Positions 54,936 to 60,977 of a stretch of DNA of 64,000 bases are shown here, piece by piece; position 1 is the stretch's first letter, and each line of letters begins with the position of its first letter. The notes beneath the pieces are model-generated. The model was not told the DNA's origin, did no database searches, and was given only the letters and a program-made list of their open reading frames with translations. The position numbers and the translations under genes are program-made. Source of the DNA: Pseudochrobactrum saccharolyticum (GTDB lineage: Bacteria > Pseudomonadota > Alphaproteobacteria > Rhizobiales > Rhizobiaceae); assembly GCF_008801715.1 (NCBI RefSeq), contig NZ_VZPG01000001.1, positions 620,001-684,000 of the forward strand. Reading direction: 5' to 3'.

Positions 54936-56210
54936 TCAGGGCTTAGCGATGACGCGCCGTCGCTTCTGATCGTGCTGCATATGAATACCTGTATGAAAGC
55001 GCAGTTCCGGCAATTGCGCTTTCACTGACACAGCCTGTGCCGCCAAATTACGTGTTACTTCTGCACAGGCCTGTTCATAATCAGCCGCTTCCAGCCATAT
55101 TTCCAGAAGTTGCTGCCCGTGCTGTACAGTCCGGTAATCGCTGATACCGGTCTTGGCTGTTGCCATCGCCTGCCGGATAAGATCAGACGGAATCATACGC
55201 AATGTGCCGTCTGCTGTGCGCCAATAGAGAATATCATCGCAGCGCCCCTCAATCCGCTTAAGACGAAGACTGGCGCAACCGCACGGACAAGGTTCATTAT
55301 CGGGGATTAATATATCGTCGAGACGATATTTCAGCACCGGCTGTGTCTCGCGCGTCAGATCCGTGATGATTGGAGCAAATGCGCCGCTGGCTTCATCAAT
55401 TATATCACGCTCAATATGCATATAGGCTTCGTTAAGATGCAGATTACCTGCGCGGCAGGTCATGCCCAATACACCTTCCGTGCATTGATAGACCTGATCG
55501 ACCCGTATGCCAAACACCGTTTCAATCGCGTTTTTGTCCTCCGGTGACAGCACTTCTGCCACGGAGATAATACAGCGCGGGGCGATATTGATTATCCGCT
55601 CCTTCTGCGCCTGTGCCAGCAGACCAAGAATTTGTGCCGGTGCAATCAGCACTGTGGGCTGCTGATCCGCAAGCCTTTGCAAATGGCTGTTAAATGATTG
55701 TAACAGATCATAAAATTCAAAACTGATCAGCGCATTGCCCAGCCGCTCATAGAGCATATTATTGGCGCGCAGAAACAGAGACACACGCTGTCGCTGCAGG
55801 AATGACGGTGAAAAGCGCCCCAGCATCAGCGCCGCCCATAATGCACGTTCGCGCTTGTTCGAGGCAAAAAGCCCGCGTTGTCCTGATGTGCCGGTGGAAA
55901 GCCCCACAGCAATATTGCGGATCATCGGTGCGAAATCACGCTCCTGCTCAGAGGTCAGCGCAATATGCAGTGCTTCTTCCTTCGAGATACCAGCGGTGTT
56001 GATATCGGTAAAATGCTCCATCATCAGAGCTTTATTCATCAACGGCCAGTCAGATAACGGCTTACCGGCATAAGGCGCATAAAAAGGAGAGCGTGGCATG
56101 ATATTGCGGCGTAAATGCTGAAACGCCTTTTGCTGATGCTGCGCAATCGCCTCACGGGATGCAAAACCCTTGCCATATCGGGCACGGAGAAAGACGGTAA
56201 GCGGGTTCAT
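54936..56210 (-). CDS. Adenylate-forming ligase, PaaK / F390-synthetase-related
   Basis: A 424-residue enzyme of the acyl-adenylate superfamily. The phosphate loop is STGTSGQRGLF (105-115). Other landmarks are ISVAEVLS, YQCTEGVLGMTC, a YRLDDIL acceptor motif, CPCGCASLRL (cysteine cluster as in PaaK-type) and EGRCDDIL. It probably activates a carboxylate, possibly a beta-hydroxy acid by analogy to OleC (inference). The ATG at 56210 overlaps the upstream gene's stop (ATGA) and follows GGGGAGAGAGG, so a longer frame to 56252 is not preferred. It is the last gene of a four-gene run. Confidence 0.82.
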   Translation of the reverse strand: MNPLTVFLRARYGKGFASREAIAQHQQKAFQHLRRNIMPRSPFYAPYAGKPLSDWPLMNKALMMEHFTDINTAGISKEEALHIALTSEQERDFAPMIRNIAVGLSTGTSGQRGLFASNKRERALWAALMLGRFSPSFLQRQRVSLFLRANNMLYERLGNALISFEFYDLLQSFNSHLQRLADQQPTVLIAPAQILGLLAQAQKERIINIAPRCIISVAEVLSPEDKNAIETVFGIRVDQVYQCTEGVLGMTCRAGNLHLNEAYMHIERDIIDEASGAFAPIITDLTRETQPVLKYRLDDILIPDNEPCPCGCASLRLKRIEGRCDDILYWRTADGTLRMIPSDLIRQAMATAKTGISDYRTVQHGQQLLEIWLEAADYEQACAEVTRNLAAQAVSVKAQLPELRFHTGIHMQHDQKRRRVIAKP

Positions 56211-57067
56211 CCTCTCTCCCCGTGGCTGTTCAAAGGATAGGCTTCCATGCAATGCGAAGCCATAATCCGCACCTGCGGATTGGCCAGATGGAATGCGCGC
56301 AGCTTTGCAAAAATCTCAAGAAAAGCATTGCGGTCGCCAAGACGGCGCAAAGTCATATCGGGCGGCAACCGGTTTTGTCTCAGTGCTTCAAGGCTCCAGA
56401 TTGCATCCGCCACCAGAAAAATTGCGCCTTGTGTTGTGGCAGGCAGAAACAAACCTGTCTGACCAAAGCCATGCCCCGGAAGTTCCACGACCAGCGCCGA
56501 CTGATCGCCCAGAAGATCATAGCCATTGCCGAAAGCCTCAAGCCCGTAAGTTGCAAGGCTGACGCAAGGCAATGACTCGACGGCCTGCAAATTCAGAGAC
56601 TGTAGCTTATCGCGGATGAGCGCCGGACATCCCGCCTTTAAAGTCGCAAGACGGGTTGCGGTCAGTTTCTCAATCGCCTGACGCGATGTTATAACCGGCG
56701 GTATTGCATGCAGATCGAACAGGCCCGACACATGATCGGCATGAAGATGCGAAAGAAAAACAAGATCGGGCTGAGCAATGCCACGCTTTTGTAACTGTTT
56801 TGGCAGGCTGTCATCAGCATCAAAGGTTACGGGTGTCAGCCAACGGTAAATCCGCTCAGGGAAAGCTGCAGTTGCCTCTCCGAACAGCTTACCGTACCCC
56901 GTATCAAACAGAATTGTGCCGCGTACCGGATGGCGCAGCACTGCAATACCGGCAGGAAAACGCCCGATACGCCACGGTGCACCGCGCTGCGTCATCGCCA
57001 GCGGCCCGCTGCAATAGCCGACATGAAAAGATGTAAAATCCAGAATGGTTTCAGAGATTGCCGGCAT
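56207..57067 (-). CDS. MBL-fold metallo-hydrolase (lactonase/thioesterase-like)
   Basis: A 286-residue metallo-beta-lactamase-fold enzyme. The metal motif is FLSHLHADHVSGL, followed by a central Asp (ADAIWSLE) and late His (SHCMEAYPL). An N-terminal GTILFDTGYGKLF block is typical of AHL-lactonase and related subgroups. The ATG at 57067 is used; in-frame starts at 57082 (ATG) and 57088 (TTG) are possible. It overlaps the SDR gene by 17 bp and the ligase gene by 4 bp, so all are one operon. It may hydrolyse a lactone or thioester made by the neighbours, in the position that OleB holds in Ole clusters (inference). Confidence 0.85.
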   Translation of the reverse strand: MPAISETILDFTSFHVGYCSGPLAMTQRGAPWRIGRFPAGIAVLRHPVRGTILFDTGYGKLFGEATAAFPERIYRWLTPVTFDADDSLPKQLQKRGIAQPDLVFLSHLHADHVSGLFDLHAIPPVITSRQAIEKLTATRLATLKAGCPALIRDKLQSLNLQAVESLPCVSLATYGLEAFGNGYDLLGDQSALVVELPGHGFGQTGLFLPATTQGAIFLVADAIWSLEALRQNRLPPDMTLRRLGDRNAFLEIFAKLRAFHLANPQVRIMASHCMEAYPLNSHGERG

Positions 57068-58028
57068 AATCTTTAATACCATCCTCAATCGCCACGGCTG
57101 GTCTGTATCCCAATTTTACCTGCGCTTTACTGATATCCAGTGTCAGACTGCGACCGAGCGATGCCACCGCCTGACAGGTCAGCACCGGCTCGCGGTCAGG
57201 TGCGAAAATGCGATGCAAAAATTCCAGCCCTTTGGCCAGCCGCATGGCATTACCATAGGAAATATGAATTTCACGCGGATGAGCATCATTTAATGCACAG
57301 ACCGCTGCCAGCAATTCCGAGAAACGGTAAGCCTTGCCGGACGTGATATTGAAAACCTCACCGCAGGCATTTTCACTGAAACCGGCCAGCGCCATAGCCT
57401 GTGCTGCATCGGACACATGAGTAATATCGATCCGGCTTTGCCCGCCGCCGATCATTGGCACCCGCCCGCGGCGGATTGCCTGCAACAAACGCGGCATCAG
57501 TGAGCGGTCACCGGTGCCGTAAATCGCTCTGGGACGTAACGCACTGGTGCGCATAGCTCCCTGCCGGTCTGCGACAAGCACCAGACATTCCGCTTCATAT
57601 TTGGTACGGGCATAATGACTGGGAAAAATTGCAGGCAATTCCGCATCTTCTGCCAGATTAAACCGGTCTTCTCCGTTGGCATAAATACTCGGTGAAGATG
57701 CGAAGACAAACCGCGCCACATCCGCTTTGCGTGCAGCATCCAGCAGGCGCTGTGTCGCGGTTACATTGATCGCCTGAAATTCCTCCGCTTTACCCCAAGC
57801 TGTTGAAAGAGCGGCGCAATGAAAGACAATATCAACCTGCTGAAAGGCTTGCACCGGATAATCGGCGCGCAGGTCAAAAGGAATAAACTCAATCCCCTGC
57901 GCTTGCAGCAATTGACCGGCATACGCATCACGCCCCTGTGCCAGAACCTGATGTCCCTGCGCAGACAGATATTTTGCCAGAGTGTTGCCGAGGCATCCTG
58001 TTGCCCCTGTCACAAGTATCTTTGCCAT
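57051..58028 (-). CDS. NAD(P)-dependent extended SDR epimerase/dehydrogenase
   Basis: A 325-residue extended short-chain dehydrogenase. The N-terminal nucleotide motif is ILVTGATGCLGNTLAKYL and the active site is in SPSIYANG and YARTKYEAE (YxxxK). Subgroup marks FHCAALSTAWGKAEEF and LRPRAIYGTGD recall 3-beta-hydroxysteroid dehydrogenase and OleD-like ketone reductases. Its start overlaps the KAS III stop by one base (TAATG). With the condensing enzyme before it and ligase after it, reduction of a beta-keto acid is a plausible step (inference). Sugar epimerase activity is the other family option. Confidence 0.87.
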   Translation of the reverse strand: MAKILVTGATGCLGNTLAKYLSAQGHQVLAQGRDAYAGQLLQAQGIEFIPFDLRADYPVQAFQQVDIVFHCAALSTAWGKAEEFQAINVTATQRLLDAARKADVARFVFASSPSIYANGEDRFNLAEDAELPAIFPSHYARTKYEAECLVLVADRQGAMRTSALRPRAIYGTGDRSLMPRLLQAIRRGRVPMIGGGQSRIDITHVSDAAQAMALAGFSENACGEVFNITSGKAYRFSELLAAVCALNDAHPREIHISYGNAMRLAKGLEFLHRIFAPDREPVLTCQAVASLGRSLTLDISKAQVKLGYRPAVAIEDGIKDYAGNL

Positions 58029-59062
58029 TAATACCGCAATATTGTTCCGCCGATAGAAATCCCTGCCGAAGTACCGGCAAGCAAGACCAGATCATTGCGC
58101 TTAAGCCGTTGTTCCGTCACCGCCATATGCAGTGCCATCGGAATGGATGTGGCGATCTGATTGCCGAAACGCGAAAATGTCTGAATAACCTTATCCGGAT
58201 GAAGTCCGATCCGTGCCAGCCCGTGTGTCAATGACGGGCCGCTCGCCTGATGAGGAATGATACAGTCAATATCAGCAATATTCAGCGCACCTTGCGCGAA
58301 TAAACGCTTCAAAAATCGTGGCAGATAACGCGCTGTTACACGGAAAGCCGCCTGCCCGTTCATGCGAAAATAAGAAGCATCCGCTGCCGCCACCGGATCA
58401 ACCGCGGCTGATATTCGTGTGCCGCCACCAGCGAGAACACAGGCATCGCGCCCTTCCGAATAGGTTTCAAATCGGCTGGCAAGCAGACCTTCCCCGTCGG
58501 CTGTCAGCACAACGGCTGCTGCACCATCGCCAAAAATGGCGGCAACATCCGGCTCATTCCAGTCCAGACCGACTGAGGCAATATCTGCGGAAAAGATCAG
58601 TACATTGCGAGCAAGCCCCAGTTGAATTTTCATAGCGGCAAGATCAAGCGCCTGAATAAAACTGAGACAGGTTGCATTCACATCATAAGCTGCAATACCG
58701 GATTTCCCCAAACCCAGCCGGTGCTGAACCAATGTGGCCGTTGAAGGAATAACCTGCTCCATAACCCCGCAGGCGCCAAGGATAAGATCAAGCTCCTGCG
58801 GCGCAATACCGGCAGCATCCAGTGCCTGCAATGCGGCCTGCTCAGCCATGAAAGAACTGGTTTCCGCACCTTGCGCCACATAGCGGGCATTGAGGCCAAA
58901 GCGGTTTTCCACAGTACCGGACGGCCAGTCCAGCATCGCATCAATTTCCGTGGAGAGAACACATTTTTCAGGCAGATAAGCGCCGGTTCCTGCGATTTTC
59001 AACCCTGGTTTCAATCCGGGATTTCCCGCACCATTTTCAACGATGGCCATTGATACTCGCAT
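58028..59062 (-). CDS. Beta-ketoacyl synthase III-type condensing enzyme (FabH/OleA-like)
   Basis: A 344-residue thiolase-fold condensing enzyme. The catalytic triad is readable: Cys132 in NATCLSF, His271 in IPHQAS and Asn301 in FGNQIATSIP, with the FGDGAAAVVL block before the middle. An N-terminal extension of about 20 residues (MRVSMAIVENGAGNPGLKPG) precedes the first strand; an in-frame Met at residue 5 is an alternative start. It leads the operon with an SDR, an MBL hydrolase and an adenylate-forming ligase. FabH of fatty-acid synthesis is less likely, because no plsX or other fab gene is adjacent. Confidence 0.88.
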   Translation of the reverse strand: MRVSMAIVENGAGNPGLKPGLKIAGTGAYLPEKCVLSTEIDAMLDWPSGTVENRFGLNARYVAQGAETSSFMAEQAALQALDAAGIAPQELDLILGACGVMEQVIPSTATLVQHRLGLGKSGIAAYDVNATCLSFIQALDLAAMKIQLGLARNVLIFSADIASVGLDWNEPDVAAIFGDGAAAVVLTADGEGLLASRFETYSEGRDACVLAGGGTRISAAVDPVAAADASYFRMNGQAAFRVTARYLPRFLKRLFAQGALNIADIDCIIPHQASGPSLTHGLARIGLHPDKVIQTFSRFGNQIATSIPMALHMAVTEQRLKRNDLVLLAGTSAGISIGGTILRY

Positions 59063-59226
59063 TTAAATTATGGTGTTCCTTAACGGGGTCGCATGATAGC
59101 CGGCCTCCGTCAAGAGACGTTTTGTAACGGAGTTTAGTGACAATGACGGCAAAGTCAGGCTATTTAACGGGTCTGTGTTTCAGCGAAAGAGCATGTTTCG
59201 CAGACGGGAAATGAGCGGGAGACCGG

Positions 59227-59847
59227 ATGAATTCGCTGTATTTGCGCCTTTGGGCTATGCTGACCGGCTGGGGTGCTGTCGGGCTGATTTACAGCCTGAC
59301 CAGCAGTCAGGATCAGGCATCGGCCATCATGCTGCAACCGTCAGCGATTGATTTGTGGTTTGATTTCGACCCGAATGCTATCTGGCTATACTTGTCATTT
59401 TTCCCGCTGGTGGCGCTGGCATATCTGTTTTGCCCGCAAACACGGCTGATCTGGCTGGCGAGATCCATGCAGCTTTCTGCCTTAGGCGCAGGGATCATTT
59501 TCACTTTCTGGCCGACAACAATGCAGTTTCCGCCGGTTACACAGGATACATTCAGCGCCTCGGTTCTGAAATTGCTGATCCAATATGATTCATTGCAGAA
59601 CTGCCTGCCGTCCCTGCATGTGACGCTCACAATACTGGCAGTCTGTGCGCTCTGGCAAAAAACGCATATTCTGCGCAGCTCCGTTATAGCGCTGTGGGGC
59701 GCAGCGATTACAGTGTCTATTCTGCAATTACATCGCCACCAATTCGTAGACCTGCTCGGCGGTGCGGCTCTGGCTATCTGCGCAGGCCTGCTCACGCAAC
59801 GGGTGCTGAATATCAGAGCGGAAATGGCTGTGAGGCGCGCCACATGA
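59227..59847 (+). CDS. PAP2-type membrane phosphatase / phosphotransferase
   Basis: A 206-residue polytopic protein with about five to six TM segments. PAP2 motifs C2 and C3 are visible as NCLPSLHVTL (PSLH) and HRHQFVDLLGG (His and Asp). The first motif with its lysine is not obvious. The family removes or transfers lipid phosphate or phospho-head groups, including inositolphosphoryl-ceramide-type enzymes. It is divergent from the KAS III gene, 164 bp between starts, and coupled by ATGA to the fatty-acid hydroxylase gene. A lipid-modifying role fits (inference). Confidence 0.82.
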   Translation: MNSLYLRLWAMLTGWGAVGLIYSLTSSQDQASAIMLQPSAIDLWFDFDPNAIWLYLSFFPLVALAYLFCPQTRLIWLARSMQLSALGAGIIFTFWPTTMQFPPVTQDTFSASVLKLLIQYDSLQNCLPSLHVTLTILAVCALWQKTHILRSSVIALWGAAITVSILQLHRHQFVDLLGGAALAICAGLLTQRVLNIRAEMAVRRAT

Positions 59848-60977
59848 TCGCTATTACCTTTCCGATTTTTCTGCTGATTATCCTTGTGCTCAGTGAAATG
59901 ATTATCCTGAGCAAAACAGGCAAGGAAAAAGTCGACTGGCATGATGTGGTGTTCAACCTCAATTCCGGCCATCTGATGCTCTGGCTGTTTCGTGGTCTGG
60001 AACTTGCCTGTTATGGTTTTATTGTTGCAAATTTCAGCCTGAATATTGTGTCGGAGTGGTCACCGGTCTGGCTGTGGTTGTTTGCTATTCTGATGTGGGA
60101 TTTCTGCTTTTACTGGCTGCATCGTCTGCATCATAAATTCGCGCTGCTCTGGGCCGTGCATGTGGTGCATCATCAGGGAGAGCATTTCAATCTGTCGCTG
60201 GCCGTGCGTAATTCATGGTATTCCTCCCTCGCCTCCATTCCTTTCTTTATTCCCATGGCACTGCTGGGCGTTCCGCTATCCGTCTTCATTACGGTTTCGG
60301 TGCTGCATTATGCAATCCAGCTGATGAACCACAGCGCTCTCACGCCAAGGCTTGGTTTTCTGGAATATATTCTGGTCACACCGGCACATCACCGCATCCA
60401 TCATGTGGATGACAGAGCCTATTCGGACTCGAATTATGCAGGAAGTTTTGTGTTCTGGGACAGGCTGTTCGACACCTATCGTCCGGATCTGCCCGAAACA
60501 GATTTCGCCTATGGCGTAAAAGGTAACAAGTCTTCACAAAACCCGTTCGTTGCCAGCAATGAGCCTTTCCGCCAATATTTGCAGGCACGCAGAGAAAAGA
60601 AACAACAGAAAGCGCCGGATTTTGTCAGTTCCGGTTTTATTATTTTAAGCGGCGCGGTCATCCTGTTTGCGCTCGTTACCGGCTATATCTGGCTCTATGG
60701 CTATCAGCTCAGCCAATCTGTCACAGAACAGGCTTTGCTGTTTATTTTCCTCGCAACCGGCTCCATTGCTTTAGGCGGTATCAGTGAGGGCAGACAATGG
60801 GCAGTGCTAAGCTGGTTTGCGATTACATGGCTGATGCTGCTCAGTTTTGCGCTGTATTTTCAATGGCACGGCCTGTTCTGGATGATTTTTATGGCTGCCT
60901 TAGCCGCACACAGTACCGCAGTATTATTCGGCTGGGGGCGCACTACCGTAATCCACAGCGCTGACACCCTGAAATAA
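59844..60977 (+). CDS. Sterol desaturase / fatty acid hydroxylase superfamily membrane protein
   Basis: A 377-residue integral di-iron hydroxylase-type protein. Histidine boxes are visible: WLHRLHHKF near 97-104, HVVHHQGEHFN near 110-120 and HHRIHHVDD near 180-188. At least eight hydrophobic segments occur, with an extra C-terminal membrane domain (about 255-370) beyond the minimal family. The ATG at 59844 overlaps the PAP2 stop (ATGA) and is preferred over an upstream frame reaching 59694. It would hydroxylate or desaturate an alkyl chain in the membrane; alkylglycerol or hopanoid substrates are alternatives. Confidence 0.87.
   Translation: MIAITFPIFLLIILVLSEMIILSKTGKEKVDWHDVVFNLNSGHLMLWLFRGLELACYGFIVANFSLNIVSEWSPVWLWLFAILMWDFCFYWLHRLHHKFALLWAVHVVHHQGEHFNLSLAVRNSWYSSLASIPFFIPMALLGVPLSVFITVSVLHYAIQLMNHSALTPRLGFLEYILVTPAHHRIHHVDDRAYSDSNYAGSFVFWDRLFDTYRPDLPETDFAYGVKGNKSSQNPFVASNEPFRQYLQARREKKQQKAPDFVSSGFIILSGAVILFALVTGYIWLYGYQLSQSVTEQALLFIFLATGSIALGGISEGRQWAVLSWFAITWLMLLSFALYFQWHGLFWMIFMAALAAHSTAVLFGWGRTTVIHSADTLK

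Follow-up and report, generated by a model that had tools for sequence, protein, structure and literature searches.

A ketosynthase-led gene cluster in Pseudochrobactrum saccharolyticum and several bacterial phyla, a candidate source of two-chain acyl lipids

The nearest solved relatives of the ketosynthase in the locus considered here, MxnB and CorB, are enzymes that join two acyl chains. Passages of PMC5724707 describe MxnB as joining two beta-ketoacyl chains and closing a pyrone, while passages of PMC4578411 identify E117 of OleA as the catalytic base and report a Val at this position in MxnB and CorB. Here we describe a six-gene locus from Pseudochrobactrum saccharolyticum (GCF_008801715.1, contig NZ_VZPG01000001.1), located within a stretch of 64,000 nucleotides (positions 620,001-684,000, forward strand) that is referred to below as the window. 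We tentatively read this locus as a biosynthetic cluster, so far uncharacterised, that would yield an acyl metabolite or membrane lipid with two chains. A preliminary description made from the sequence alone had compared it with the OleABCD pathway; the gene set given there is correct, and the Ole comparison is not. Its remark that no named pathway matches the set is in line with our search of the open-access literature, which found no name for the locus.

The locus comprises six intact open reading frames (ORFs) in two divergent, tightly packed units, with adjacent genes inside each unit overlapping by 1 to 17 bases:

54936..56210, minus strand: PaaK-like adenylate-forming ligase (LIG), TIGR02304 (F390 synthetase-related)
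56207..57067, minus strand: metallo-beta-lactamase-fold (MBL) hydrolase with the fold of acyl-homoserine lactone (AHL) lactonases and a full set of metal ligands
57051..58028, minus strand: extended short-chain dehydrogenase/reductase (SDR), top models those of OleD, below cut-off
58028..59062, minus strand: ketosynthase of the KAS III type (KAS), Cys132-His271-Asn301, nearest solved relatives MxnB and CorB
59063..59226, no strand: divergent gap of 164 bases, the presumed control region
59227..59847, plus strand: PAP2-superfamily membrane protein, marginal Pfam score
59844..60977, plus strand: fatty acid hydroxylase / sterol desaturase family protein of 377 amino acids, histidine motifs intact

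The four leftward genes are called KAS, SDR, MBL and LIG below and together form the core. The families given in the preliminary description agree with the Pfam and NCBIfam names, including ACP_syn_III (KAS), Epimerase (SDR), Lactamase_B (MBL) and FA_hydroxylase. The starts of MBL and LIG were taken at ATG codons (for MBL an upstream TTG at 57088 is also possible, and the listed LIG ORF begins at TTG 56252), and the hydroxylase start was taken at 59844, downstream of the beginning of the listed ORF at 59694.

The catalytic triad proposed for KAS in the preliminary description is borne out by the alignment, where Cys132 is Cys in all 86 aligned cluster KAS and His271 and Asn301 are each kept in 85, with one gap. 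At the position of OleA Glu117, the cluster KAS have Ile (62) or Leu (24), whereas the references have Glu in four of four OleA controls, Phe in six of six FabHs and Val in MxnB and CorB. The residues that follow the catalytic Cys are Leu (70/86) and Ser (76/86), as in the NASCLSF motif of MxnB and CorB, compared with S/T-Gly in all six FabHs and Leu-A/G in OleAs. In a sequence search against solved structures, the best hits of KAS were MxnB (214 bits) and CorB (206 bits), with the best FabH at 186 bits, and a Foldseek search with the AlphaFold2 model of KAS (predicted local distance difference test, pLDDT, 90.6) returned MxnB/CorB at ranks 1-3 and FabHs next. Phylogenetic analysis placed the cluster KAS and MxnB/CorB on one side of a branch (supports 98/94, and 96/96 in a second tree), with FabH (100/99) and OleA (100/100) each separate, and a grouping of MxnB/CorB with FabH was rejected (p 1.5e-4). 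Taken by sequence, predicted fold and tree, these comparisons point to a kinship of KAS with MxnB and CorB, and KAS may likewise condense two acyl chains to a lactone. PqsD and DarB were considered as further candidates and rejected, since PqsD did not appear before rank 28 in the fold search and the DarB models gave 21 and 38 bits.

The main alternative is a single-chain pathway, where a FabH-like KAS would extend an acyl-coenzyme A (acyl-CoA) with malonyl-acyl carrier protein, SDR would yield the 3-hydroxyacyl form, MBL would act as a thioesterase, LIG would reactivate the acid, and the tail enzymes would complete a 3-hydroxy fatty acid lipid. It draws on the intact Cys-His-Asn triad and on the scores of KAS on two FabH models, 211.7 bits on TIGR00747 (cut-off 292.1) and 232 bits on the second (cut-off 249). 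A further lead, and only a lead, comes from passages of the review PMC8995832, which report raised 3-hydroxyoctadecaenoic acid in Escherichia coli Nissle 1917, a carrier of the cluster. However, the host has a separate FabH of its own that passes TIGR00747 at 417.2 bits, and the cluster KAS differ from FabHs both at the Phe position and after the catalytic Cys. The preliminary description had named a firm grouping with housekeeping FabH, together with lipids unchanged on deletion, as a result that would speak against it; the clades are separate and the TIGR00747 score is below cut-off, which rules out a housekeeping FabH. We consider the single-chain pathway somewhat unlikely.

A route of the Ole type, ending in beta-lactones or long-chain olefins and using non-homologous enzymes in place of OleB and OleC, was the scheme of the preliminary description, in which MBL and LIG were seen as the replacements. 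The four steps are of similar kind, and the top models of SDR are indeed those of OleD (194.8 and 171 bits), although the former score is far below the NF042422 cut-off of 580, which the OleD control exceeds with 640.6, so that membership in OleD is rejected. Membership of KAS in OleA is likewise rejected by the absence of the base Glu in 86 of 86 sequences and by the separate branches, and KAS reaches only 98 bits on PRK09258 (cut-off 285), compared with 463, 467, 471 and 506 bits for the four OleA controls. No homologues of OleC or OleB were recognised in the locus: in BLASTP comparisons with the controls, LIG matched OleC at E 1.0 and MBL matched OleB at E 0.81. The yardstick for these comparisons was a separate Ole locus (L159), whose KAS matches PDB entry 3fk5, which we take to be OleA of Xanthomonas campestris, at 632 bits. 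Its OleD and OleC pass NF042422 (641) and the olefin beta-lactone synthetase model (1008), respectively, whereas its OleB was named by position and by haloalkane-dehalogenase-type matches below cut-off; three of the four OleA controls were named from PRK09258 together with an OleD-like gene in the same stretch. The proteins of the window locus stay below the cut-offs of all these control models, TIGR00747 included. We regard the Ole-type route as highly improbable, and the proposed link to OleABCD does not hold.

The remaining core enzymes have intact active sites. The Ser-Tyr-Lys residues of SDR are invariant in 90 of 90 aligned sequences, and the seven metal ligands of MBL are identical in 93 of 93. 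With the MBL model (pLDDT 95.1), fold ranks 1-26 were AHL lactonases and pyridoxo-lactonases, two of which (5eh9 and 5eht) are not called lactonases in their own titles, 5eh9 being named AiiA and 5eht sharing the title of 5eh9. On the best AHL lactonase family model, MBL scored 44.5 bits against a cut-off of 390. LIG has no Pfam match and passes TIGR02304 with 451.2 bits (curated cut-off 251.9), whereas it scores 17 bits on the model of true F390 synthetase (cut-off 459) and 30.2 bits on the PaaK model TIGR02155 (cut-off 646); among ligases of solved structure, PaaK enzymes come closest to it (67 bits). Gly108, Glu246, Asp300, Arg324 and Lys417 of LIG are kept in 97 of 97 sequences, and Cys253, His259, Cys309 and Cys311, which look like a shared metal site, are each kept in 94. 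The Cys309-Cys311 stretch is lost from LIG of two sampled loci (L062 and L065). For the TIGR02304 family, no tested function was found in the open-access literature. Passages of PMC2649909 mention an F390 synthetase in a type II fatty acid synthesis cluster of D. psychrophila, and the KAS-SDR-MBL-LIG set is not shown in them.

Lactonase-fold enzymes and PaaK-like ligases also serve catabolism. Their presence would suit a catabolic or detoxifying locus that combines lactone opening with CoA ligation; however, the core is led by a carbon-carbon bond-forming KAS with an intact triad, and we regard this explanation as scarcely probable.

The distribution of the core was examined in a sample of loci chosen by LIG similarity, comprising the best 80 of at least 578 confirmed LIG relatives in genome contigs, 10 of 76 matching plasmid records and eight further genome stretches, 98 in total. 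Two short contigs (L081 and L106), where gene calling gave no LIG ORF, were dropped, leaving 96 loci, which are not independent draws, as they were picked by LIG similarity and two genomes of the window's genus are counted twice (L049/L068 and L051/L067). KAS, SDR, MBL and LIG occur all together in 84 of the 96 loci, and in 81 of these 84 they follow the order KAS-SDR-MBL-LIG on a single strand, which agrees with the view of a coherent acyl-condensation locus taken in the preliminary description. KAS comes last in two of the exceptions (L142 and L145), and the third (L080) is probably an artefact of ORF starts. Full cores are found in five named phyla, Pseudomonadota, Bacillota, Campylobacterota, Bacteroidota and Saccharimonadota, the latter two represented by one locus each, both from metagenome bins; in Cyanobacteriota, there are only partial cores (L093 and L102). 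Among the twelve incomplete loci, L054 and L055 have weak LIG relatives only, L091, L093 and L137 begin at a contig end, L146 lacks SDR, L062 has LIG alone, and in L065 KAS is cut by the stretch edge and more than 7.5 kb distant. On the Pseudomonas plasmids pBASL58 and pMPPla107 (L065 23-9254; L062 7905-9203), the core genes are scattered among hypothetical genes or LIG stands alone.

Within the genus, KAS is present at 89-99% identity in four other genomes, TIGR02304 is above cut-off in five of seven genomes, and the six genes stay together in all five genomes that have LIG. The set recurs in E. coli and Burkholderia. The preliminary description had suggested a search for the gene order across Rhizobiales: the core is indeed kept together across phyla but not across this order, where no KAS closer than 36% identity was seen in 34 genomes from the rest of the family and order. 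Among 385 genomes of the class, TIGR02304 is above cut-off only in the window's own genome, and 55 have some match at E 0.001. Thus, the cluster is widespread and is not a Rhizobiales feature. A check for an empty site in the two genus genomes that lack the cluster yielded nothing, as the flanking arginase had a weak match of 31.6 bits in one (G004) and a match at the end of a contig in the other (G002). The arginase and LacI neighbours of the window locus have orthologues within the genus only in L051/L067 (97-98%), whereas L048-L050 and L068 have a different LacI-like gene near the hydroxylase (22-23% identity). In one genus relative, the KAS-PAP2 gap is enlarged and contains a NUDIX gene (L048 9816-10262). 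A promoter scan listed no sigma-70-like sites in the 164-base gap of the window locus, and promoter-like sites numbered 7 versus 5.8 in shuffles. KAS, MBL and LIG have no match among the PHROGs phage families.

The genes that accompany the core, here called tails, vary between loci. As called by BLAST with our own thresholds in the 96 loci, they include ATP-grasp with GNAT (29), ATP-grasp alone (11), GNAT alone (1), sulfotransferase (15), DUF3419 (1), PAP2 with hydroxylase and desaturase (12), PAP2 with hydroxylase (7), PAP2 alone (2) and hydroxylase alone (1), and 17 loci, including the two with weak LIG relatives, have none of the tested types. In Arcobacter and Shewanella (L089 13433-14386; L090 13551-14546), a Rieske-domain protein follows ATP-grasp and GNAT. 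On a Rhizobium plasmid (L064 9298-11461), the core is followed by DUF3419 and by a 368-amino-acid protein without a Pfam match. In two Burkholderiales loci (L096 13017-13889; L105 12964-13917), the hydroxylase is followed by an extra gene for a PF10118 "predicted metal-dependent hydrolase", and in Serratia and Pectobacterium fontis (L088 12886-15176; L115; L116) the cluster ends in two tandem desaturase genes. Ten His residues of the hydroxylase are kept in 21 of 21 aligned sequences. Its only NCBIfam match is the ornithine lipid hydroxylase OlsE (NF052566), which is rejected as an assignment at 80.4 bits against a cut-off of 475. A PDB sequence search gave no matches for the hydroxylase and one chance match for PAP2.

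In E. coli, the region between narI and purU contains the same six genes together with one for an acyl-CoA desaturase. The core was matched in 672 of 5426 complete E. coli genomes, a set that does not represent the species evenly. The PAP2-hydroxylase-desaturase part was also matched in 672 (671 at >80% coverage) with the same identity bands, the two sets being compared by totals and bands. The cluster is present in Nissle 1917 (CIW80_RS24800-RS24830) and ATCC 25922 and absent from the narI-purU site of UTI89, the only site examined in that strain, where an IS4-family transposase is found instead. In E. coli and two Serratia (L183 1-9798, L059 1-13081, L088 3892-15176, L115 3771-8141), the cluster follows narI immediately and is read in the same direction, a position that hints at expression with nitrate respiration; enzymes of the hydroxylase and desaturase families generally depend on oxygen. 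One E. coli "plasmid" record (L059, NZ_CP141085.1 79257-98522) bears narGHJI, purU, galU and hns and thus appears to be a piece of chromosome deposited as a plasmid.

The window locus has a composite ancestry. In a quick ligase tree with Shimodaira-Hasegawa-like approximate likelihood ratio support, LIG of the window and its genus belongs to a group of 17 that includes the Rhodobacterales sulfotransferase type (100), whereas the enterobacterial/Burkholderiales PAP2-hydroxylase type lies in a separate group of 15 (99). Forcing the window core together with the enterobacterial/Burkholderiales core was rejected for LIG (approximately unbiased test, p 2.4e-5), SDR (1.5e-9) and MBL (2.7e-4), and the KAS tree agrees with the Rhodobacterales placement (99/99). 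In contrast, PAP2 and the hydroxylase of the window group with those of enterobacteria and Azoarcus (99/98 and 100/99) in trees that are midpoint-rooted and contain some long rows. Identity to E. coli is 52% for PAP2 and 51% for the hydroxylase, compared with 32-40% for the four core genes. The best-scoring other hydroxylase in 289 genomes of the class has 38% identity over 240 residues, with shorter, lower-scoring matches reaching 41% (PAP2 was not searched likewise). On sequence evidence, the window locus is a mosaic of a Rhodobacterales-type core and an enterobacterial-type PAP2-hydroxylase pair, and this pair has apparently become associated with two separate lineages of the core.

Such independent pairing is the strongest sign that the two units serve one product, and suggests that they work together. 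PAP2 and the hydroxylase could instead be chance neighbours of a four-gene pathway, as the pair is on the opposite strand in the window and is missing from most sampled cores. However, it is found near the core in 19 of the 96 loci, of which 12 also have the desaturase and 7 do not, and with both core lineages, making a chance association very unlikely. Of the seven desaturase-less loci, six are genus loci from four genomes; a search for a desaturase elsewhere in the genus, run without a positive control, gave none in seven genomes.

We propose the following reactions, substrates and product for a two-chain pathway. KAS would load one acyl chain on Cys132 and join it to another acyl thioester, probably of the beta-keto kind, without an OleA-type base, as MxnB and CorB do, to give a branched 2-acyl-3-oxo thioester or a lactone closing from it. 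SDR would reduce a keto group, the lactonase-fold MBL would release a free acid by hydrolysis of the lactone (or thioester), and the PaaK-like LIG would adenylate this acid for transfer to CoA or a head group. Release of the KAS product by lactone closure would explain why KAS is so constantly accompanied by an enzyme with a lactonase fold and a ligase that activates acids. The tail enzymes would act on the activated or attached product; in the window version, these are presumed membrane enzymes, the hydroxylase oxidising an alkyl chain and PAP2 removing or transferring a phosphate group. In other bacteria, a sulfotransferase, ATP-grasp with GNAT, or DUF3419 would take the place of the PAP2-hydroxylase pair, with the core product as the common scaffold.

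Several observations weigh against this proposal. The place of MxnB/CorB is unstable, as one tree nests them within the cluster clade (97/89) and the second, which has fewer long rows, puts them next to it (cluster alone 85/68, together 96/96); their branch is long (1.41), their identity to KAS is only about 37%, and the tree in PMC4578411 has them inside the FabH clade. The best model of KAS is a generic KAS III equivalog, PRK07204 (NF005541), at 358.7 bits, below the cut-off of 402, which a Paenibacillus member passes (425) and the KAS of E. coli (333), Paracoccus (355) and Rhizobium (284) do not, and the KAS sequence appears compatible with a malonyl-using, FabH-like reaction. MBL shares 16-19% identity with its fold matches, PAP2 is a marginal assignment (PF14378 27.4 bits against 27.0; PF01569 26.0, below 27.2), and no carrier protein was recognised among the six genes. 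Finally, KAS was undetected beside LIG in four loci (L082, L094, L102 and L126), none of which is a contig end. With these points included, we give the two-chain pathway somewhat less than an even chance.

A broader and more doubtful, though possible, interpretation is that of a modular family across phyla, in which the core builds a branched acyl scaffold common to all members, and this scaffold is converted by exchangeable tails (PAP2 with hydroxylase and desaturase, sulfotransferase, ATP-grasp with GNAT and in some cases a Rieske protein, or DUF3419) into different lipids or signals, one of them in Nissle 1917. If true, a class of bacterial chain-joined lipids would have gone unnoticed despite genes in about one eighth of the complete E. 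coli genomes examined, in bacteria that include a widely used probiotic and many Bacillota and Proteobacteria. The myxopyronin-type chain-joining enzymes would gain a wider evolutionary setting, and lipid tailoring would be swapped as gene modules.

Compared with described systems, the cluster resembles each in part. With OleABCD it shares a KAS III, an OleD-like SDR and an adenylate-forming enzyme, whereas its KAS lacks the OleA Glu and its ligase and hydrolase come from other families. The AHL lactonases AiiA, GcL and AhlX are like MBL in fold and metal ligands but distant in sequence, with their family model not reached, and MBL sits in a KAS-led operon. OlsE is the sole NCBIfam match of the hydroxylase, although no ornithine lipid gene is among the six, and LIG is a member of TIGR02304 above the curated cut-off. 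The nearest solved sequences and folds to KAS remain MxnB and CorB, whose Val at the OleA-Glu position has a likewise hydrophobic counterpart in the cluster. No polyketide synthase (PKS) genes were found beside the core; MxnB and CorB join chains from large PKS lines, according to passages of PMC5724707, whereas here KAS is followed by SDR, MBL and LIG.

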